From contig JALOOO010000025.1 in the NCBI GenBank assembly GCA_025454375.1, positions 1-32,752 of the forward strand: a DNA stretch of 32,752 bases, read 5' to 3'. Both the position numbers and the translations under genes were made by a program. The notes beneath the pieces were generated by a model. That model was not told the origin of the DNA and ran no database searches. It saw only the letters and a list, made by a program, of their open reading frames with translations. The first letter of the stretch is position 1; every line of letters starts with the position of its first letter. This document shows positions 7,977 to 32,752 of this stretch, in pieces. This DNA is from Leptolyngbya sp. Prado105 (lineage in GTDB: Bacteria; Cyanobacteriota; Cyanobacteriia; Leptolyngbyales; Leptolyngbyaceae).

Positions 7977-8966
7977 ATGAGTTGGAATCGTCGCCACGTT
8001 TTATCGCTTGCTGATTTTTCGCCCCTCGAATATGACACTGTTTTGCAGACGGCAAGTAGTTTTCGAGAAGTGTTGACTCGTCGCACAAAGAAGGTTCCGA
8101 CACTTCAGGGTCAAGTGGTCGCAAATCTATTTTTTGAACCTTCGACTCGCACCCGCAGCAGTTTTGAACTTGCAGCAAAACGATTGTCAGCCGATACTTT
8201 GAACTTCGCCGCAAGCACTTCTTCGATCACAAAAGGCGAAACTATTCTCGATACCGCAAAAACGTATCTGGCAATGGGAACAGACATGATGGTGATTCGC
8301 CACAAAGAAGCGGGAGTCCCTCAAGCGATCGCGGATGAAATGGATCGCCTCAATGTCAAAGTCGGAGTTCTCAACGCTGGAGACGGACAACACGAACATC
8401 CTTCTCAAGCGTTATTAGATCTGTTCACGATTTGCTCACTGATGGATGTCGAGAAACCACGATCGAGCTTACTTAAGGGTAAAAAAGTCGCGATCGTTGG
8501 AGATATCTTGCACTCACGAGTCGCTCGATCGAATATTTGGAGTTTAACCGCAACAGGAGCCGAAGTCTATTTAGCCGCTCCTCCAACCCTACTCCCAAAA
8601 GAATTTGCCGATTTCGCCAAAGACAGTGACCTCGATCGCAAATTATTTATCCATTGGACTTTAGAGCCTGCCTTAATCGATGCCGATTTTGTCATGGCGT
8701 TGCGATTGCAAAAAGAACGCATGACCAGTCATTTACTGCCCAGTTTGCGCGAGTATCATCAGCAGTTTGGGATTACCCGCGATCGCTTAAAGCTCTGCAA
8801 GCCAGAGGTTAAAGTCCTGCATCCGGGACCTGTGAATCGCGGCGTTGAGATTAGTTCAGATTTGATGGACGATCCGGTGCTGAGTTTGATTTCGCAACAG
8901 GTAACGAGTGGAGTGGCGGTGCGGATGGCCCTGTTGTATCTAATGGGAGGGGGCAAAGTTGGTTAG
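7977..8966 (+). CDS. pyrB: Aspartate carbamoyltransferase catalytic subunit
   Basis: A 329-residue enzyme for the second step of pyrimidine synthesis, carbamoyl phosphate + L-aspartate to N-carbamoyl-L-aspartate. The carbamoyl-phosphate loop [18 protein letters not shown] is complete (about residues 53-70), followed by [13 protein letters not shown], the RHKEAGVPQ region, [36 protein letters not shown] in the aspartate domain and [11 protein letters not shown] near the C terminus. Length and motifs match stand-alone cyanobacterial PyrB; no regulatory pyrI is present. The start ATG lacks a strong ribosome site. The next gene, crtH, follows 37 bases on. Confidence 0.97.
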
Positions 8967-25080: not shown

Positions 25081-25665
25081 CTAGGCTTGCTTGCCGCTTT
25101 CCCCTTTGATCACAGCAGAAGCAATCAAATGCGCGAGTCTTAACGGTTCGGGAACATGTCCTCGATCGGTGACTCGCGCTAAAACTTTTGACGTAATTTC
25201 GGGCGTTGCACCCGCGACTTGGAAGACAAACGGAGCCGACTCGTAAATGATCCCAGCGCGGGAGATCATCTCTAATCGGCGTTCTGGTTCAGGCAGTCGT
25301 CTTAAGGCATATTCTACTTTTTCGAGTTTGGGATAGCGACGCATCACACTCACACAGGGAATCGCGATCGCATTTGACAATGCAGGCAGATCGACAATAT
25401 TAAACCCACCGAGTGAGATGCCATCGAGTAAAACAATGTGCAATTGGGGTAAGAATTTACTTTTGAGTAAAACATTCGCGATCGTCTCTGTTGCATCCCA
25501 GCCATCGGGTTGAATCTCACTCCACAGCATCCCCTCGAAACGGGTTCCGGCACAGACGATTCCAGCAATGGGGACAGGCTGACCCGATTTACGAATGAAA
25601 GGAGCATCATCAAAGCCGATCGCCCGAATTAAGCGGTTTTGTTCAATTAGAGTTTCGAGATTCAT
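25081..25665 (-). CDS. DUF99 family protein
   Basis: A 194-residue protein. The start IRAIGFDDAPF, the VCAGTRFEGMLW segment, LLDGISLGGFNIVD and IPCVSVMRRYP are the DUF99 core, a family related in fold to endonuclease V but without an assigned role and best known from archaea. The ending EPLRLAHLIASAVIKGESG is also family-like. It is convergent with the fasciclin gene. No function is claimed. Confidence 0.88.
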   Translation of the reverse strand: MNLETLIEQNRLIRAIGFDDAPFIRKSGQPVPIAGIVCAGTRFEGMLWSEIQPDGWDATETIANVLLKSKFLPQLHIVLLDGISLGGFNIVDLPALSNAIAIPCVSVMRRYPKLEKVEYALRRLPEPERRLEMISRAGIIYESAPFVFQVAGATPEITSKVLARVTDRGHVPEPLRLAHLIASAVIKGESGKQA

Positions 25666-25732
25666 TGCGTTAAGCGTTGCAGGTTCTATTATTTTGACGC
25701 TTCAGCCTAAATCTCAGATAGCAATGTTTGCA

Positions 25733-25816
25733 CGATAACGACCAAGATAAGCGGCGAGGAATGAGCTAGAACGAAGCGCAGAGTCTTTAAATCGCCGCCT
25801 CATCGACTTGTTAGCT
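25733..25816 (-). repeat. attC-like integron recombination site
   Basis: Read on the minus strand, 16 bases after the toxin stop: R''-like AGCTAAC (25816-25810), spacer AAGTC, L'' GATGAGGCGGCGA, a 34-base variable region, L' TCGCCGCTTATC, spacer TTGGTC and R'-like GTTATCG (25739-25733). L'' and L' pair throughout if one G in L'' is left extrahelical, with a single G-T pair; the spacers of 5 and 6 bases do not pair; and the AAC/GTT triplets face each other at equal distance. This is the architecture of a cassette attC site, 84 bases long. The R boxes match the RYYYAAC/GTTRRRY consensus only in part. Confidence 0.5.
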
Positions 25817-25832
25817 GGCTTGCCACAGCCAA

Positions 25833-26090
25833 CTACTTCAACAACTTCTCATATTCATCATGCTCACCGATCCAGATCCAATAATAATCGTCTCCTTTTT
25901 TCAATGCTAATGCTCGATATCCACCACTGATCCGAGCCGACCAAAGATTCTTGCTAACTTTCTTAAAATGCAGGGAGGGATGAAGTGAATTTTCCTTCCA
26001 AAGCTTGTAGGCTTTTCGCGCTTGCTCCTTCATATCAGGGGACAGTTCAGCATAGGACTTCTAGAAATCAGCCGTCGTTAAGGACTTCAT
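25833..26090 (-). pseudogene. RelE/ParE-like toxin interrupted by one in-frame TAG
   Basis: The reading frame from ATG 26090, which overlaps the antitoxin end, encodes MKSLTTADF, then TAG (26063-26061), then KSYAELSPDMKEQARKAY and on to GEHDEYEKLL: 85 codons in all, the usual size for this toxin family. Homologues have tryptophan (an FWKSY-type motif) where the TAG stands, and TGG to TAG is one base change. Family traits downstream are RKAYKLWKEN, HPSLHFK, WSARISGGYRALAL and WIWIGEHDEY. These toxins are mRNA-targeting or gyrase-targeting small basic proteins neutralised by the partner. Re-initiation at ATG 26033 would give 66 residues lacking the first helix, so I infer an inactive toxin. Confidence 0.72.
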
Positions 26091-26289
26091 CTAGATCCCT
26101 CACGTTGCTAGCTGCTATATCTGCTTCTGCTCTAGCAATCAGATGATCTAATTTTCCTGCTGCTAAATCTGCTTCAATCTGCCTATCCCACATCTCATTA
26201 AGATATTCTTGAAGCCAGTTTGCCAGAGCGCGAACTTCACCCTCTGGCAATTGTTTGATAGCTGACTCAACCTCTAAACGATTAGTCAT
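26068..26289 (-). CDS. Type II antitoxin, partner of the broken toxin
   Basis: A 73-residue acidic, helical protein: a short N-terminal part (EVESAIKQLPEGEVRALANWL) and a C-terminal tail ending DLDEVLNDG, the usual toxin-wrapping form. It resembles the small antitoxins paired with HigB/ParE-like toxins in cyanobacteria, although no DNA-binding fold is obvious. The toxin start codon lies inside its last codons (23-base overlap), the standard translational coupling of such pairs. The antitoxin itself is intact. The 200 bases upstream hold no gene or repeat I can name. Confidence 0.7.
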   Translation of the reverse strand: MTNRLEVESAIKQLPEGEVRALANWLQEYLNEMWDRQIEADLAAGKLDHLIARAEADIAASNVRDLDEVLNDG

Positions 26290-26495
26290 ATGGAAAGTCC
26301 ATCATTTGAAGAGCATTTCCATTTTATCGCCAATTATGGCTTGGAAGTCAGTAGCAACTCAAGCACCTAGATCGATGCCTCCTGATTCAAACCGCCACAC
26401 CAAATTAAAAATTATGATGTAGGGACTTCCGCCTGCCTAGCTAGATGCTCTAACCCTGCTTTAAACTGAATAAGCAATTGCTCGACGAATTTCTT
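26290..26495. other. Gap upstream of the antitoxin and the DUF3082 gene
   Basis: About 200 bases with no gene. It must hold divergent promoters for the antitoxin (-) and the small membrane protein (+). I looked for a second attC-like site that would close an integron cassette here and did not find one. Confidence 0.3.
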
Positions 26496-26786
26496 ATGTC
26501 AGACTCTCCCACTCCCCAATCTCCCACTCCTCTACGCTGCGTCCTCGGCTCGATCGTCGCCGCCGCCCTTGCCTACGCGCTCTACAATATGACAACCTCG
26601 ATCGCACTTTCCTTCACCACAAAACCAATCACATCAGATAGTCTCGTTGTTCAACGGATTTCCTCTGCTGTAAGAACTCTTGTTCTAGGTATGAGTACGA
26701 TGGGAACAGGCATCTTCGGACTGGCAGCCCTGGGACTCTTTGCGCTTGCGATTCAACTGCTCATCAGCAAACCTAAAGAAGAATAG
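26496..26786 (+). CDS. DUF3082 small membrane protein
   Basis: A 96-residue protein from ATG 26496 (MSDSPTPQSPTP); an in-frame TTG 18 bases earlier is less likely. A Ser/Pro/Thr-rich start leads to a membrane helix (about 18-38), a loop with the short TTKPITSDS motif, and a second helical hairpin (about 56-90; VLGMSTMGTGIFGLAALGLFAL). This two-helix layout with the KPI loop fits DUF3082, a family restricted to cyanobacteria and plastids, with no assigned function. Confidence 0.78.
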   Translation: MSDSPTPQSPTPLRCVLGSIVAAALAYALYNMTTSIALSFTTKPITSDSLVVQRISSAVRTLVLGMSTMGTGIFGLAALGLFALAIQLLISKPKEE

Positions 26787-26896
26787 TTAGAACGATCGTC
26801 GGTTGAAATCGTCTGGATAGTTCTTCTGCCCTTCAAGTGATTTCGCGCTTTGGCGCTTATTTGAGTTTGGAGATAGCAAACGGTTTCAACAGAATC

Positions 26897-27103
26897 TCAC
26901 GATTCGTCGAACGCTTCTAAATCTAGAAGATAAAGATAAGGCTCGACTAATTCTGGGCGCTGAAACGCGATCGCTCTCAGCAGATGCCAATCGTTTAGAC
27001 CTTCAAAGGCATCCGTATAATCATCCTTCTCCAAACGAGCCGCCAGCGTTTCGATATCCGACTCCGTCAGTTTCGACACATCCACCTGTTTCAGACCAGA
27101 CAT
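26897..27103 (-). CDS. Small hypothetical protein
   Basis: A 68-residue acidic protein from ATG 27103 (MSGLKQVDVSKL); a TTG at 27121 would add six residues. It is predicted to be helical, with ESDIETLAARLEKDD and LVEPYLYLLDLEAFDES. I recognise no domain, and the coding potential is moderate. It lies between DUF3082 and chlI on the opposite strand. Confidence 0.5.
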   Translation of the reverse strand: MSGLKQVDVSKLTESDIETLAARLEKDDYTDAFEGLNDWHLLRAIAFQRPELVEPYLYLLDLEAFDES

Positions 27104-27284
27104 AATTCGCCGCGCCTCCAACGATTTTCCCCTTGATCCAAATTTTACTTCACCGATTCAAACTCGCTTCAAAATAAAACGTTATTTACGATCGTGCATC
27201 CTATCTGCTCGATTTCAGGTCACAATCCATGTCACAATAAGTAACGCGACTTAAAAATAGCCTTAACTTTTCTCAGGACTTCCC

Positions 27285-28373
27285 GTGACCTTTACGACAG
27301 AAACAACTTCACAAAACGGACGATCCACCGCAGTTCCCCGTCGGCGTGCGGTGTTTCCTTTTACTGCGATCGTCGGGCAAGAAGAAATGAAACTTGCTCT
27401 CCTGCTCAACATTATCGACCCCAAAATCGGTGGGGTGATGATCATGGGCGATCGTGGAACCGGAAAATCGACCACGATTCGCGCGCTGGCTGACCTGTTG
27501 CCCGAAATTGATGTCGTGGCTGAAGATCCCTTCAATAGCCATCCAGCCGATATCGAATTGATGGGCGATACCGTTCGCCAGATGCTTGACCAGGGTGCGA
27601 CTGTGCCCGTGGTAAAGAAGAAAGTCATGATGGTCGATTTGCCCCTGGGTGCGACAGAAGATCGCGTCTGTGGCACGATCGATATCGAGAAAGCCCTCTC
27701 AGAAGGGGTCAAAGCATTTGAACCAGGACTGCTTGCGAAGGCAAATCGCGGCATTCTCTATGTCGATGAAGTTAATCTTCTAGATGATCATTTAGTCGAT
27801 GTGCTGCTCGATTCGGCAGCATCGGGCTGGAATACGGTCGAGCGCGAAGGCATTTCGATTCGGCATCCAGCACGGTTTGTTCTCGTGGGTTCTGGCAACC
27901 CAGAAGAAGGAGAACTGCGTCCGCAATTGCTCGATCGCTTTGGAATGCACGCGGAAATTCGCACGGTCAAAGAGCCTGCACTGCGCGTTCAAATCGTGGA
28001 GCAACGGACAGAATTTGACCAAGACCCAATGCCATTCTTAGAGAAGTATCAGCCTCAGCAGCATGATTTGCAGCAGCAGATTGTGGACGCTCAAGAACGC
28101 TTGAAGGGGATCGTGATTGATTACGATCTGCGGGTGAAGATTTCGCAGATGTGTTCTGAACTCGATGTCGATGGTTTGCGCGGCGACATTGTGACAAACC
28201 GTGCGGCAAAAGCGCTTGCTGCTCTAGAAGGTCGGACTGAAGTGACCGTGGATGAGATTCGCCGCATCGCGCCGCTCTGTCTACGTCACCGTTTGCGTAA
28301 AGACCCAATGGAATCGATCGATTCTGGTTACAAAGTTGAAAAGGTCTTTGATCAAGTGTTTGGCATGGAATAG
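27285..28373 (+). CDS. chlI: Magnesium chelatase ATPase subunit ChlI
   Basis: A 362-residue AAA+ ATPase that, with ChlD and ChlH, inserts Mg2+ into protoporphyrin IX, the committed step of chlorophyll synthesis. Walker A is GDRGTGKST (about 55-63), the insert with [17 protein letters not shown] is typical of ChlI/BchI, Walker B is [13 protein letters not shown] (about 152-164), sensor 1 is [20 protein letters not shown], and sensor 2 / C-terminal helical domain runs from about 250, with a conserved LRHRLRKDP. Translation starts at GTG. A terminator follows the stop. The 160 bases upstream contain the promoter but no element I can name. Confidence 0.97.
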
Positions 28374-28449
28374 TAGCTGGATGGGTACTGTCGATCGAGC
28401 AGACAATCCTGCATGATCAGAGACATGCTCAATGCTTACACACCAATGT

Positions 28450-28485
28450 TGTAGAGGGATTCGTAATGAGTTCCTCTACATTTTT
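28450..28485 (+). terminator. Intrinsic terminator after chlI
   Basis: TGTAGAGGGA (28450-28459) pairs with TTCCTCTACA (28471-28480) over 10 bp with one G-T pair, followed by five T residues (28481-28485). It lies 76 bases past the chlI stop and abuts the convergent hydrolase stop. Confidence 0.8.
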
Positions 28486-28486
28486 A

Positions 28487-30088
28487 TTAATCTGATACCA
28501 AGCTCGAAAGAGACAACTGAGAGCGACATTGCCCCCCCGTATGCAGATCGATCGTAATGATCTGAAAGTCGATCGCGCTTGCATGTTTCGCAGTTTCTCC
28601 TGTCCCTGCATTCACCGCATAAGCCGGAAAACAAGCGCCACTGATACTCAATCGAATTGCACTGCCTTGACTAATCCGGATACAAGTCGGCTGCAATGCA
28701 ATTTTATAAGCTGCGAGTTCAGAGCGATCGCTTCTCAAATACCCCTGCGAAAAATTCATCACACTGCCATCGGGGTTCACTTCCGATAGCACCGCACAGA
28801 GATCAAAACTCTCTGCATCCGAGCTTGCATACAGTTCAACGACACTCTCTCCGACTAGATGCACATCTGCTTCGAGCCTCTTCGTCGTGTAGGTCACAAC
28901 ATCACTCCGAGCCTCGATCGCACTGCGATCAAATGACCCACAAGGATAAGCCATATGTCCACCTAAAGCTGGAACAGGTCGCCAAGGATCATGAACAATG
29001 ACATCGATCGCGCGCTGTGAACTTTCTGAAGTTAGATGTCCTTCTCGATCGTCCATTCCTGCTAATCCACTACTTTCGAGGATCAGCAAAGTCTGTGAAC
29101 CCTCTGGGAATTCAGCAAACGATCGCCATCGGTTACTACCCATCTCAAATAATTGCACAGGCGGATCATTGAGTTCAGATCCTTTGAGAAAGTGATCAAA
29201 CCAGCGAATCTGAGCGCGATCGCAAAAACTCGCAGCCTCGGCTCCATAATCGATCGCCCCGACTTTACGCCCCCAAGGTAAATGCGCCCAAGCTCCTACA
29301 ATCAAATGTTGTCGATGCTTTTTCGAGCTAGCTTGATACGATCGCAATGTCCCCCGCATGTAGGGATCAAACCAGCCGCCGATATGCAGCATTGGAAGCT
29401 CGATCGACCTGACCTCCGGCGTTAATTTCTGCCAATACGCATCCTTTGAATCGAGCCAAGCTTGATAGTAAGCATCATACTGTGCGTACTTTTGCATCAC
29501 ATCCGGATAGGCGGGAATGCGATCGCTCAAGGGCAAATTCTTCGCGGCTCTAGATAGCTCCAAAAAAGCAACTTCATCTCCTTGCAGCCGAGCCGTTTCT
29601 GCTGCTAATTGAATTGCCCACCCCAAATTTGCGAACAGACAAAAAGCCCCATTTTCATACGCCCAGTCTCGTTTCAAATCAGGTGCAAGCATTGCAGGAC
29701 AAATCGTTTTCAATGGCTCTGGTTTGTTTAATGCAGCATACAACTGAGTCATCCCTTGATAAGAAAACCCATACATTCCCACCTTGCCATTGCTGCGAGG
29801 CAAATTCGCTGCCCAATTGACTGCTTCAAATCCATCTTCGATCTCATGCTCAAACAGCTTAAACTTGCCCTCTGAAGTTCCCCGTCCCCTGACATCCTGA
29901 ATCACGACAATGTAACCCTGAGCCGCATACCAGGACGGATGTGCATACACCACCGTCGATGCGATCGCGCGTCCATAGGGCTGCCGCATTAATAAGACTG
30001 GAAATTCTCCTTCGGCATCTGGATAGTACACATCCGCATCCAACCGAACCTGGTTGTGGGTATACATCGAGACTAATTGTTTCAGCAT
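28487..30088 (-). CDS. CocE/NonD family alpha/beta hydrolase
   Basis: A 533-residue protein from ATG 30088, whose A is shared with the stop of the exosortase gene (TAATG); an in-frame ATG at 30181 lies inside that gene and is rejected. N-terminal alpha/beta hydrolase fold: RQPYGRAIA, QDVRGRGTSEG, the nucleophile elbow GMYGFSYQG with the catalytic serine, GWFDPYMRG with the catalytic aspartate and GAWAHLPWG with the histidine. A C-terminal jelly-roll domain (about 330-525) completes the X-Pro dipeptidyl-peptidase/CocE layout. The family includes peptidases, esterases and acylases; cocaine esterase is one named member. The substrate is unknown. Placement behind an exosortase suggests an envelope or exopolysaccharide job, but this is inference. 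Confidence 0.9.
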   Translation of the reverse strand: MLKQLVSMYTHNQVRLDADVYYPDAEGEFPVLLMRQPYGRAIASTVVYAHPSWYAAQGYIVVIQDVRGRGTSEGKFKLFEHEIEDGFEAVNWAANLPRSNGKVGMYGFSYQGMTQLYAALNKPEPLKTICPAMLAPDLKRDWAYENGAFCLFANLGWAIQLAAETARLQGDEVAFLELSRAAKNLPLSDRIPAYPDVMQKYAQYDAYYQAWLDSKDAYWQKLTPEVRSIELPMLHIGGWFDPYMRGTLRSYQASSKKHRQHLIVGAWAHLPWGRKVGAIDYGAEAASFCDRAQIRWFDHFLKGSELNDPPVQLFEMGSNRWRSFAEFPEGSQTLLILESSGLAGMDDREGHLTSESSQRAIDVIVHDPWRPVPALGGHMAYPCGSFDRSAIEARSDVVTYTTKRLEADVHLVGESVVELYASSDAESFDLCAVLSEVNPDGSVMNFSQGYLRSDRSELAAYKIALQPTCIRISQGSAIRLSISGACFPAYAVNAGTGETAKHASAIDFQIITIDLHTGGQCRSQLSLSSLVSD

Positions 30089-30963
30089 TACTTTTGAGCA
30101 TTCAAGAGGGGCTGAGTTGCATAGTAATAGATTGTGAACAAAATTCCTGAAAAAATCTGCCCCCCAACCGTACCGTGCCAAAACTCAAACGCATCTTTGC
30201 CCCAGTACACCGCAGCCAAAACCATCACCGCAATGCGGCACACATTCATCACTAATGCCAATGAAATGCCGATCGCGATTAAAGCAAGCATCATCCGCGA
30301 TCGCACTCGAAAGACAATCCCCATAATGAGTGCCGTCATCAACATCACAAACGACATCTCAAACCCATCACACCCAGATGCAACCTCAACCGTCCCCGCT
30401 GGCAAAACGATGAATTGTTCTTGAATTGAGACAGGCTGTCCGATCACTTTTAGCAACTCACCTCCGCCCCAAGCCATCCATTTTGATAACGCTTGCGGAT
30501 GAGCCACAATGCTCCAGAGATGGCGTGCAACTCGCTCTAAATTTGGATGTAAGCTCAGCATCAGTAACGCGATCGCTGCCCACTGCTGTCGCAAAAACGG
30601 CAATCCCTGATAGCTCAGAACCCCCCCGACTAGAATAATCATGCAGCTTAACGATTGCGGCGTAACAGCAGGATAGTAAAAATAAAAAATTGCTAACCCA
30701 CCTAAAATTAAGCCACTCCCCAGCCATTGGTCTTCGATCGAGATTTCCTGCACCGACTTACGATGTCGTCTGAGTTGTCGAACGGCAAGCGCGATCAATA
30801 AACTGTTCAAGATCAGGTGCGACATTCCGCTAACAACCACAGTTGCAGACAGAGAAATCAGAGTAGGCAGATAGACTCCTAAGCCAAGTGCCGCACCTGA
30901 AAGCAGAATCCAGTTATGAATCGATCTCAAGCTCGATTTGAAGACAGAAAATTCTCTATTCAT
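30088..30963 (-). CDS. Exosortase (cyanoexosortase type)
   Basis: A 291-residue polytopic membrane protein with about eight helices. The catalytic triad of exosortases is readable: C198 in EVASGCDGFEMS, R243 in NVCRIAVMV and H263 in EFWHGTVGGQI. These transpeptidase-like enzymes recognise PEP-CTERM-type C-terminal sorting signals on exported proteins and are usually linked to exopolysaccharide loci. No PEP-CTERM protein is visible in the window, so the targets lie elsewhere. It follows the HpsJ-like gene by 5 bases and overlaps the hydrolase start by one base. I cannot place it in cyanoexosortase A, B or C by eye. Confidence 0.88.
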   Translation of the reverse strand: MNREFSVFKSSLRSIHNWILLSGAALGLGVYLPTLISLSATVVVSGMSHLILNSLLIALAVRQLRRHRKSVQEISIEDQWLGSGLILGGLAIFYFYYPAVTPQSLSCMIILVGGVLSYQGLPFLRQQWAAIALLMLSLHPNLERVARHLWSIVAHPQALSKWMAWGGGELLKVIGQPVSIQEQFIVLPAGTVEVASGCDGFEMSFVMLMTALIMGIVFRVRSRMMLALIAIGISLALVMNVCRIAVMVLAAVYWGKDAFEFWHGTVGGQIFSGILFTIYYYATQPLLNAQK

Positions 30964-30968
30964 CCCTC

Positions 30969-31577
30969 TTAAGCTCTGAAGAGGTACAAGCTATAGCGTC
31001 CCAGGACAAGCAAGGTTACACCAATGACGGCAAGATTGCCAATACTGAGAATCCCACTTTTAAGAATGCTATTGTTCGCATTTTGTTTCGCGGATTCTGC
31101 TTGGGCATTGACTCGTTGAGCCGCTTGTGTAAGTTGTTCGGGTGTAATTTTCGCGCCTGCCTCTGGATTTTCCTGGATGGCTTGCAGTCGAGAGTTAAGC
31201 TGTGAAACTTGGGCGCTAATTTGCTCGTTTGCTTGACGCTGGAGTGCCAGACTATCTTGAGCGACAACAGCACAAGAAAGCACAAAGACCGTGCCGATCG
31301 TAAAACAGAGGAGCGCAAGCGATCGTAGAATCTTTCGCCGCTCAACGCCGTACATCAGCAGCGCTAATCCAAACAACACGACAATACTGCGATCGCCCAC
31401 TTGCTGAAGTGAGCTTAATCGCCACTGGGCTGCCCCAAAATCAGGAGGCAGTACAATCACGAAGAAGTCAACCGCAAACGCGACCAGACAAGCAAGCCCA
31501 ACAATCCGGCAAAGTTTCTTGGCACGAGGTGAATCAATCAACGAGGAACCCACGATTTTCTTGGAAGTAAAAGTCAT
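30969..31577 (-). CDS. HpsJ-like membrane protein
   Basis: A 202-residue protein with three N-terminal membrane helices (about 26-46, 68-82 and 88-108), a coiled-coil stretch (about 112-165; NEQISAQVSQLNSRLQAIQ) and a final helix (about 175-200). This layout matches HpsJ-type proteins found beside cyanoexosortases; HpsJ itself belongs to the hormogonium polysaccharide locus of Nostoc punctiforme. First gene of the operon with the exosortase and hydrolase. Assignment rests on architecture and neighbour. Confidence 0.75.
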   Translation of the reverse strand: MTFTSKKIVGSSLIDSPRAKKLCRIVGLACLVAFAVDFFVIVLPPDFGAAQWRLSSLQQVGDRSIVVLFGLALLMYGVERRKILRSLALLCFTIGTVFVLSCAVVAQDSLALQRQANEQISAQVSQLNSRLQAIQENPEAGAKITPEQLTQAAQRVNAQAESAKQNANNSILKSGILSIGNLAVIGVTLLVLGRYSLYLFRA

Positions 31578-31717
31578 AAAAAGGATTGCGACGCGAAAAA
31601 AACAGGTGGTAGGCTGCGTCGGATTCCCTGAATTCTAGTCATCGCAATTTTAACAAGGTGATTTTTAGACCTCGTGGAAAATACCCAAACTTTATCAAGA
31701 CTGGATATTGAGTTTAC

Positions 31718-32272
31718 TTAGTTTTTATAGACGGCTTCGCTCAGTTTCGTATGCGCCTCACGGATTTTAGCCGTTGCCCGTTGGGTCACAGCCGTCCAGT
31801 CAATCTGCTCTGGATAGGGTGCGAATACTGCTTGTCCGGTTGCTGGATTGTAGATGCGACAAAATAGAACTTGCTCTGTATCGCCCGCTTCAACGGCGAT
31901 CGTGATCGGCTGGCGAAAGGCTTCGATCGGAAGTTTGGACAGCATAAAGACGAGTCCACGCGCGAATAGAGTATCGTAACCGGATTGAATCACGTAAGCT
32001 CGATCGGCGCGAATATGTAAATTCACCTTGTAGTCCGGTTTACCCCGAAATTCTTTCTCTTCGACTTCTAGCTTTTCAATGATTCCGGTGAGCGCGTGCT
32101 GCTCGATCGGCTCATGTTCTGATTTTGCGCCATTCCAGAAATACCACAGACAATCACTGTATTGACGATTTGCGTAGATATAGCGCGGTTTTGGCGGATG
32201 GCTAAAGCCTAGCGTTTGTTTTGAGGAGCGCAGTTCGTCAAGAATCGCTTGCAAGAGTTGATTGCTGTCCAT
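31718..32272 (-). CDS. Conserved hypothetical protein
   Basis: A 184-residue soluble protein with no signal peptide. I do not recognise a domain. It shows an RYIYANRQYSDCLWYFWNG block, a mostly beta middle (ALTGIIEKLEVEEKEFRGK, KVNLHIRADRAYVIQSG) that could be a small barrel, and a helical tail. It lies alone between the exosortase operon and the GH65 gene. Confidence 0.72.
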   Translation of the reverse strand: MDSNQLLQAILDELRSSKQTLGFSHPPKPRYIYANRQYSDCLWYFWNGAKSEHEPIEQHALTGIIEKLEVEEKEFRGKPDYKVNLHIRADRAYVIQSGYDTLFARGLVFMLSKLPIEAFRQPITIAVEAGDTEQVLFCRIYNPATGQAVFAPYPEQIDWTAVTQRATAKIREAHTKLSEAVYKN

Positions 32273-32350
32273 AGAAGCCGAAATGATTTAATACATAAAT
32301 ACTATACTCGACTCGCAAAGACGATCGCAAAAAACACATGAAATCTTGGA

Positions 32351-32389
32351 TTTAAACAGGCTCTAAATTAAATTTAGAGCCTGTTTAAA
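32351..32389. terminator. Perfect 19-bp palindrome at the end of the GH65 gene
   Basis: Arms 32351-32369 and 32371-32389 are exact reverse complements with a single central base; the core AACAGGCTCTAAATT is flanked by A/T-rich ends that provide T-tracts in both directions. It ends 2 bases before the GH65 stop (32391), so it is most simply the transcription terminator of that gene. Confidence 0.7.
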
Positions 32390-32390
32390 T

Positions 32391-32752
32391 TTACGCAGAG
32401 GTAAAATTAGTTTGAGTCGATCGAGCAACTGCTTCACACATTACTTGGTTTTGGGACAAATCAAACTCATACCATTGGTCTTGCCAACAGAGGCGGAACT
32501 TCACCCTTGTCCAATGCACAGGCAAACTTGGACAAGCGACAGGACCTAATTCTGTCAGACGAATTCCCGCAAATCCAAAGACGATCGCTTGCCACACTCC
32601 ACCTGCTGAAGCCGCATGAATTCCTTCTGAAGCATTACCACGCACATCTTCGAGATCGACGAGTACCGATCGCATAAAGTGCTGATAGGCTTCCTCAACT
32701 TGAGCAAGTCCACAGGCCAAAATCGCATGAACCGCTGGACCGAGCGACGACC
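32391..32752 (-). CDS. GH65-family glycoside phosphorylase/hydrolase, C-terminal end (partial)
   Basis: The frame is open to the right window edge; about 120 C-terminal residues are present of a protein normally near 750-800. AYQHFMRSVLVDLEDVRGN, then GIHAASAGGVWQAIVFGFAG and the closing sugar-enzyme sandwich domain (VHWTRVKFRLCW) are the GH65 C-terminal signature. The family contains maltose, trehalose and kojibiose phosphorylases and trehalases; which one cannot be told from this part. A strong palindromic terminator follows. Confidence 0.88.
   Translation of the reverse strand, partial: SSLGPAVHAILACGLAQVEEAYQHFMRSVLVDLEDVRGNASEGIHAASAGGVWQAIVFGFAGIRLTELGPVACPSLPVHWTRVKFRLCWQDQWYEFDLSQNQVMCEAVARSTQTNFTSA

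Follow-up and report, generated by a model that had tools for sequence, protein, structure and literature searches.

A solitary ParE-like toxin-antitoxin cassette in Leptolyngbya sp. Prado105, and attI-like platforms scattered through its lineage

Introduction

Solitary integron cassettes of the SALIN type, defined in PMC12690207, have been described in Shewanella, where 115 were counted in 41 genomes (PMC9229058). The locus that we describe here, in the cyanobacterium Leptolyngbya sp. Prado105, is like them in having one attC and one cassette, no integrase nearby and a place among sites scattered over the chromosome (PMC9229058, PMC12690207). It differs in its cyanobacterial host, in the two full-length integrases carried on other contigs and in a lineage-specific attC sequence type. 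Cyanobacterial attC sites have been given a taxon-specific covariance model by Ghaly et al. 2021 (PMC8352920), and ours belongs to the same taxon and the same structural class. Toxin-antitoxin modules are also cassette cargo in the Vibrio cholerae chromosomal integron (PMC11023631). In contrast to those cassettes ours is solitary, and its toxin frame contains an early stop. Finally, Loot et al. in 2024 reportedly described the integration of cassettes at genomic sites, attG. Such integration predicts cassettes at scattered non-attI sites; at our locus the target site is putative.

With solitary cassettes, cyanobacterial attC sites and attG insertion all described already, the cassette reported here is another SALIN. 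Our reading, to which we give a probability of about 0.9, is that the minus strand from about 26358 to 25739 of the window (the whole 32,752-nt stretch that was analysed) is an integron cassette standing alone in the chromosome and consisting of a ParE-like toxin-antitoxin module and a cyanobacterial-type attC; the mode of insertion, its target and the direction of transfer are deduced.

Results

The attC site occupies positions 25733..25816 of the minus strand, in the order R''-spacer-L''-loop-L'-spacer-R'. R'' (AGCTAAC, 25816-25810, minus strand) is followed by the spacer AAGTC and by the L'' arm GATGAGGCGGCGA (25792..25804, minus strand), in which a single G at 25801 is extrahelical. A loop of 34 nt leads to the L' arm TCGCCGCTTATC (25746..25757, minus strand), which pairs with L'' in the covariation count, and then come the spacer TTGGTC and R' (GTTATCG, 25739-25733, minus strand). 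Both central spacers are unpaired, and the AAC and GTT core triplets of R'' and R' face each other. The crossover would fall between the G at 25739 and the T at 25738 of the minus strand. In an integrated cassette, R' past the crossover is part of the flank. Every element of the full attC architecture that the original prediction had described is present, and the site begins 16 nt downstream of the toxin stop (ORF 25833-26033), in the orientation of a gene cassette, as can be read from the sequence and its ORFs. The agreement of the R boxes is as partial as had been said: the R'' and R' arms pair at just four positions from the core and then mismatch.

How much does such an architecture prove? 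A descriptor with facing AAC and GTT, spacers of 5-6 nt, a nine-pair stem and one bulge matches three places in the window, and it also matches at least one place in 12 of 30 dinucleotide-shuffled windows (mean 0.53). The bare architecture is therefore weak evidence, and homology has to decide. An Rfam search of the window gave no match. A pattern with fixed core letters found the window site alone in the Leptolyngbya sp. Prado105 genome, so a covariance model was needed.

In a first comparison of 39 genomes, our own included, the attC matched 13 places in eight others. From matches to the attC itself and from homologous toxin-antitoxin loci we aligned 12 complete sites of relatives, leaving out the window site and dropping a near-duplicate (L035), two half sites (L033 and L040) and the truncated sites of genomes G016 and G009. 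The resulting covariance model, R1, run with filters off, gives the window site 80 bits (E 1.7e-22), and the seven other window matches listed at E <= 10 reach 8.5 bits or less. Since the window was absent from the training set, this score is not circular. The covariance-model check proposed for the minus strand thus confirms, as far as sequence can, that 25733-25816 is a genuine attC site.

The stem is supported by covariation. In the 12-site training set, again without the window, the share of paired cells is 94.0%, and covariation reaches 0.252 (0.138 in shuffles). Across 132 aligned sites (125 distinct), collected with R1 and fitted to it and hence biased towards it, 93.9% of cells pair (79.6% in shuffles), both sides have changed in 212 cells (55.5 in shuffles) and covariation is 0.372 (0.115 in shuffles, at most 0.086 in slid controls). 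The core triplets read AAC in 120 and GTT in 123 of these 132. R1 finds matches at E <= 1 in 55 of 58 genomes, in a search whose stricter filters weak sites may escape. A scan with the integrase from contig C97 of our genome returned 80 loci, and R1, run on 62 of them, gave 75 attC matches on integrase-bearing stretches, among them stretches of Myxacorys, Phormidesmis, Calothrix and Pseudanabaena. One such locus, L218 of Lyngbya sp. HA4199-MV5, has short attC-like units in tandem after the attI, to the left of intI, apparently cassettes with little or no gene content.

The hairpin could in principle be an ordinary inverted repeat, a terminator or a chance structure with no tie to integrons, and the ease with which shuffled windows yield the bare architecture speaks for this. 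Against it stand the 80-bit homology to sites in many genomes, the same attC family on integrase-bearing stretches of named cyanobacteria, and the strong covariation. Homology and covariation rule out a chance hairpin, no terminator-like site lies within 25600-26600, and a tRNA identity was tested and rejected. We regard an ordinary hairpin as extremely improbable.

The attC of the window has one extrahelical base, which is G on the coding strand (25801) and C on the bottom strand. An extrahelical base on the R''-L'' arm sets the recombining strand; attC sites typically have two or three such bases, the first of them almost exclusively a bottom-strand G (PMC2727003). The window site lacks this typical, non-required trait, and it has company. 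The first extrahelical base is a coding-strand G in 127 of the 132 homologous sites (alignment A5), in 73 of the 75 on integrase-bearing stretches (A6) and likewise in two matches on Chloroflexi stretches, all counted from R1-found sites alone and with a slight bias from the training of R1 on sites with G. At the second extrahelical position 120 of the 132 sites have A; the window site has C, and the usual base is absent. The coding-strand G is the complement of the published norm for attC, and at the level of the lineage it is more novel than the cassette. The main text of PMC8352920 uses neither 'extrahelical' nor 'extra-helical'. In the VCR, a G-to-C change at the first extrahelical base lowers recombination with attI 2.7-fold, and attC sites without extrahelical bases still recombine with attI, with a 6.2-fold drop; effects on attC x attC recombination are larger, up to 68-fold for one substitution (PMC2727003).

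Upstream of the attC lies a ParE-like toxin gene (25833..26090, minus strand). The frame carries an early in-frame stop at 26063-26061 (minus strand), which leaves 25833-26033 open, and this ORF matches PF24732 (ParE_like) at E 4.5e-8, with 33.4 bits against a cut-off of 24.4. An intact homologue is present in G018. The window toxin may have lost its activity, or translation may restart at an internal ATG. A 73-residue ORF (26068..26289, minus strand) overlaps the toxin start; it has no family match in Pfam or NCBIfam, and its position in the gene order and its conservation jointly with the toxin make it the putative antitoxin gene. Homology to the copies in G017, G018 and G009 stops at 26353, 26352 and 26354, respectively, which places the probable 5' end of the cassette, and with it the putative junction, at the minus-strand motif GTTGCTA (26352..26358). 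The cassette occupies about 25739-26358 and is a ParE-like toxin-antitoxin module closed by an attC.

The module is found, with or without an attC, in other genera and in unrelated surroundings. When the whole window was compared with nine homologous loci of 3.4 to 18 kb, none showed similarity at E <= 1e-4 beyond the module and its attC. In G016, which is of a different genus, the module is 91% identical, and the 2.9-kb query that shows this has one other match there, in part of the DUF2555 gene, at 70%. Among the nine loci a full attC follows the module in two (G017, with 73 bits, and G018), a truncated one in two (G016 and G009) and none in five (L013, L014, L017, L021 and L022). The G018 module has one attC upstream, a 14-nt attC remnant three bases before its start and a full attC after it, and homology to the window continues through that last attC. 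This pattern is the mark of a cassette that has moved between genera and whose attC has decayed or is missing in several copies. The proposal that the module is integron cargo is borne out: the attC is real, the module recurs in unrelated surroundings, and the G018 copy sits between attC sequences. The cassette on our contig C51, with copies at 85-86% in G002 and G004 far from the counterpart of its downstream flank, is a sister case for mobility.

Might the segment have spread by homologous recombination, a transposon or a plasmid, with the attC uninvolved in its arrival? The IS-like repeat in the left flank (see below), the five of nine loci without an attC after the module and the occurrence of half an attC on mobilizable plasmids are in keeping with this. 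Yet in G017, G018 and G009 the match to the window starts at one and the same place to within 2 nt (26352-26354), and the G018 match extends through the attC, as it would for a cassette. We consider spread without the attC improbable, and movement as a cassette our preferred reading.

The plasmids merit a description of their own. The 5' half of an attC like that of the window occurs on 29.6-kb mobilizable plasmids of Tolypothrix and Microchaete (three records, one examined). In the Tolypothrix plasmid NZ_CP064891.1 (L260, 3029-3109) the half attC follows an alpha/beta hydrolase gene, and this plasmid is a possible vehicle for cassettes.

On the side of the attC the cassette is flanked by a gene of the Endonuclease dU family (Endo_dU, 25081..25665, minus strand; PF01949, E 1.7e-55) and on the other side by a DUF3082 gene (26478..26786, plus strand; PF11282, E 1.4e-31). 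Between the latter and the cassette lies a 55-bp repeat (26391..26445, minus strand), also present near the ends of four G011 contigs at 94-95% identity. We take this repeat to resemble an IS200/IS605-type end. The IS-like end, being close upstream, may have changed the left cassette junction. The Endo_dU, DUF3082 and DUF2555 genes lie far apart in relatives. Comparison by eye of the region upstream of Endo_dU found no empty site: the sequence there is unrelated in five of seven other genomes of the genus (G003 and G006 lie outside the comparison) and likewise in one relative from another genus. Capture at a secondary site, as originally suggested, therefore finds no backing from an empty site, and insertion at this spot is a deduction. 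Secondary-site capture, loss of a neighbouring platform and rearrangement are all candidates for the landing. None of the three results that were to count against the original prediction (a background covariance score, no other attC-like site in the genome, plain synteny in all relatives) was obtained.

The genome as a whole carries two integron integrases above the TIGR02249 cut-off of 265, on C97 (475.2 bits) and C348 (466 bits), which align over 314 and 312 residues, respectively, to the V. cholerae IntI structure 2a3v (E 3.2e-93 and 1.2e-87). The statement that no integrase is in view thus holds for the window and fails for the genome. A search of the whole genome for further copies, which had been advised along with the search for intI, yields 11 attC sites at E <= 0.02 on 11 contigs (R1). 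For four of these (C72, C73, C262 and C261) a contig end is no more than about 700 bases away, so their solitude is uncertain. The attC of the window lies 25.7 kb and 6.9 kb from the ends of its contig, C49; R1 finds no second attC in these 32.7 kb, and the integrases are on other contigs, C97 and C348, as in a SALIN. The suggestion from their genes that contigs C97 and C72 might be joined was rejected, the two having no 25-mers in common.

Solitary sites occur in the relatives as well. In six complete or near-complete genomes, 50 of 150 listed attC sites (from 154 matches) stand more than 10 kb from any integrase and from any other site on the list, a count in which R1 may miss divergent neighbours. 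In our own genome, upstream ORFs were scanned at six of the 11 loci: a Pfam toxin family appears at three (ParE_like in the window, BrnT on C289 and PIN on C262) and at none of C371, C195 and C257. An enrichment of toxin-antitoxin genes in solitary over arrayed cassettes is unsupported in the relatives, families of this type occurring in both sets. Solitary cassettes gave DUF5615 four times, BrnT three, DUF433 three, PemK two, Fic one and UPF0175 one (75 ORFs at 48 of 50 sites; the first 25 of 56 families); arrayed cassettes gave PIN 11 times, UPF0175 four, BrnT two, ParE_like one and Fic one (75 distinct ORFs at 54 of 65 sites), with sites lacking a suitable ORF left out of both tallies.

Where would such cassettes dock? 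By eye, the region upstream of many cyanobacterial integrases, reading away from the gene, contains imperfect palindromes, each about 35 bp long, lined up one after another and closed by a half unit with a GTT core (L028, L029 and intI loci L091-L112). At the C97 integrase of our genome (L028, 6914-7230) four near-identical palindrome copies stand in a row; the corresponding C348 region is L029, 38-250. By a strict count, in which some palindromes are not of the attI type, two or more occur in 11 of 26 integrase loci, against 30 of 400 random windows; the other 15 loci fall below two, and the C348 region has none. With loose settings all shuffles were beaten at only three of 23 loci upstream of integrases. 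Single-strand covariation of the palindromes is low (0.195, against 0.158 in shuffles), and little covariation is what is expected of a double-stranded binding site.

We built a second model, R2, from the last palindrome unit and the core in 16 sequences. It finds attI-like sites in seven of eight genomes of the genus, five of them in our own genome; the divergent palindrome array of C97 has no R2 match. Only the site on C348 adjoins an integrase, and the other four (C289:68910-68976, C96:71422-71488, C322:4129-4195 and C257:6766-6832) have no full integrase beside them. Such sites also occur in G002, G001, G005, G006 and G007, often followed by a solitary cassette, and G005, G006 and G007 carry them although no integrase was found there at E <= 1e-60. 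The platforms on C348 (L029) and C322 (L283) share 50 identical nt, which run from the core until contig C348 ends; this suggests one and the same first cassette at both. We examined 22 attI-bearing sequences that have no full integrase, after setting aside from a list of 24 the window and L293, a sequence that R2 does not match. Five of the 22 have clear integrase remnants next to them (G002 5677645, G001 C23, G001 C1, G006 326099 and G007 C177), so some platforms are decayed integrons.

Of 20 attC sites listed for the three sister genomes G002, G004 and G006, 12 are preceded, within 6 kb and on their own strand, by an attI-like site (ten distinct attI); three of the pairs rest on weak attI matches, at E about 0.001. 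The count leaves aside two of ten G002 attC matches and two attI matches that are partial or reversed. With sites placed at random, such pairs average 0.066 and reach 3 at most over 2000 trials; on the wrong side or strand there is one.

These pairs bear on the origin of our locus. The cassette could be the last survivor of a decayed array, or of an integrase-less attI platform that stood here, the attI having been lost, perhaps by an IS-like insertion, and no capture at a secondary site being involved. Besides the pairs themselves and the IS-like end close to the cassette, G017 points this way: an attI-like site (L047, 6984-7049; 47 bits) lies there on the same strand as the module, which begins at 8078, 1.0 kb past it, with the attC (8614-8697) 1.6 kb past it. 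On the other side, R1 finds the window's attC alone, and no attI-like sequence in 25600-32752 gives a match above 8.5 bits (filters off). A vanished platform is a possible but doubtful account of how the cassette came to stand alone.

Discussion

On our main reading, an IntI supplied probably by one of the two integrase genes of this genome, or else by a donor, would have acted on a circular cassette. The attC of this cassette, as a folded bottom strand, would have recombined with a double-stranded G|TT, so that the inserted cassette has a single attC, at the 3' end. The toxin frame would have acquired its early stop after arrival. Toxin-antitoxin cassettes of integrons have their own promoters (PMC11023631), and such a cassette can therefore persist away from an integron platform. 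The attC of the window could by now be a remnant that no longer recombines; its partial R''/R' pairing, the missing second extrahelical base, the IS-like end and the want of an attI make this conceivable.

The integrase-less, scattered attI-like platforms are, at the level of the lineage, more novel than the cassette of the window. Among the open-access titles and openings of abstracts that were listed, we found no such platforms in cyanobacteria, and earlier work on them may exist. We suggest, tentatively and at rather less than even odds, that the genus has a 'distributed integron', in which many scattered attI platforms without an adjoining integrase, together with scattered single cassettes, would depend on none, one or two IntI genes acting in trans, the attI being of an unusual kind: tandem palindromes, imperfect and roughly 35 bp long, closed by a half unit and the GTT core. 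If this is right, cassettes are inserted and expressed in a variety of chromosomal settings. The genus has near-closed genomes in which several attI-like platforms lack an integrase, and these make the idea of one integrase with many docking sites in trans testable.

The consistent difference at the first extrahelical base is a natural experiment on strand choice by integrases at attC. Our findings indicate that integron cassettes spread through filamentous cyanobacteria and lodge singly in the chromosome. The solitary cassette described here sits in a genome that still carries integrases.
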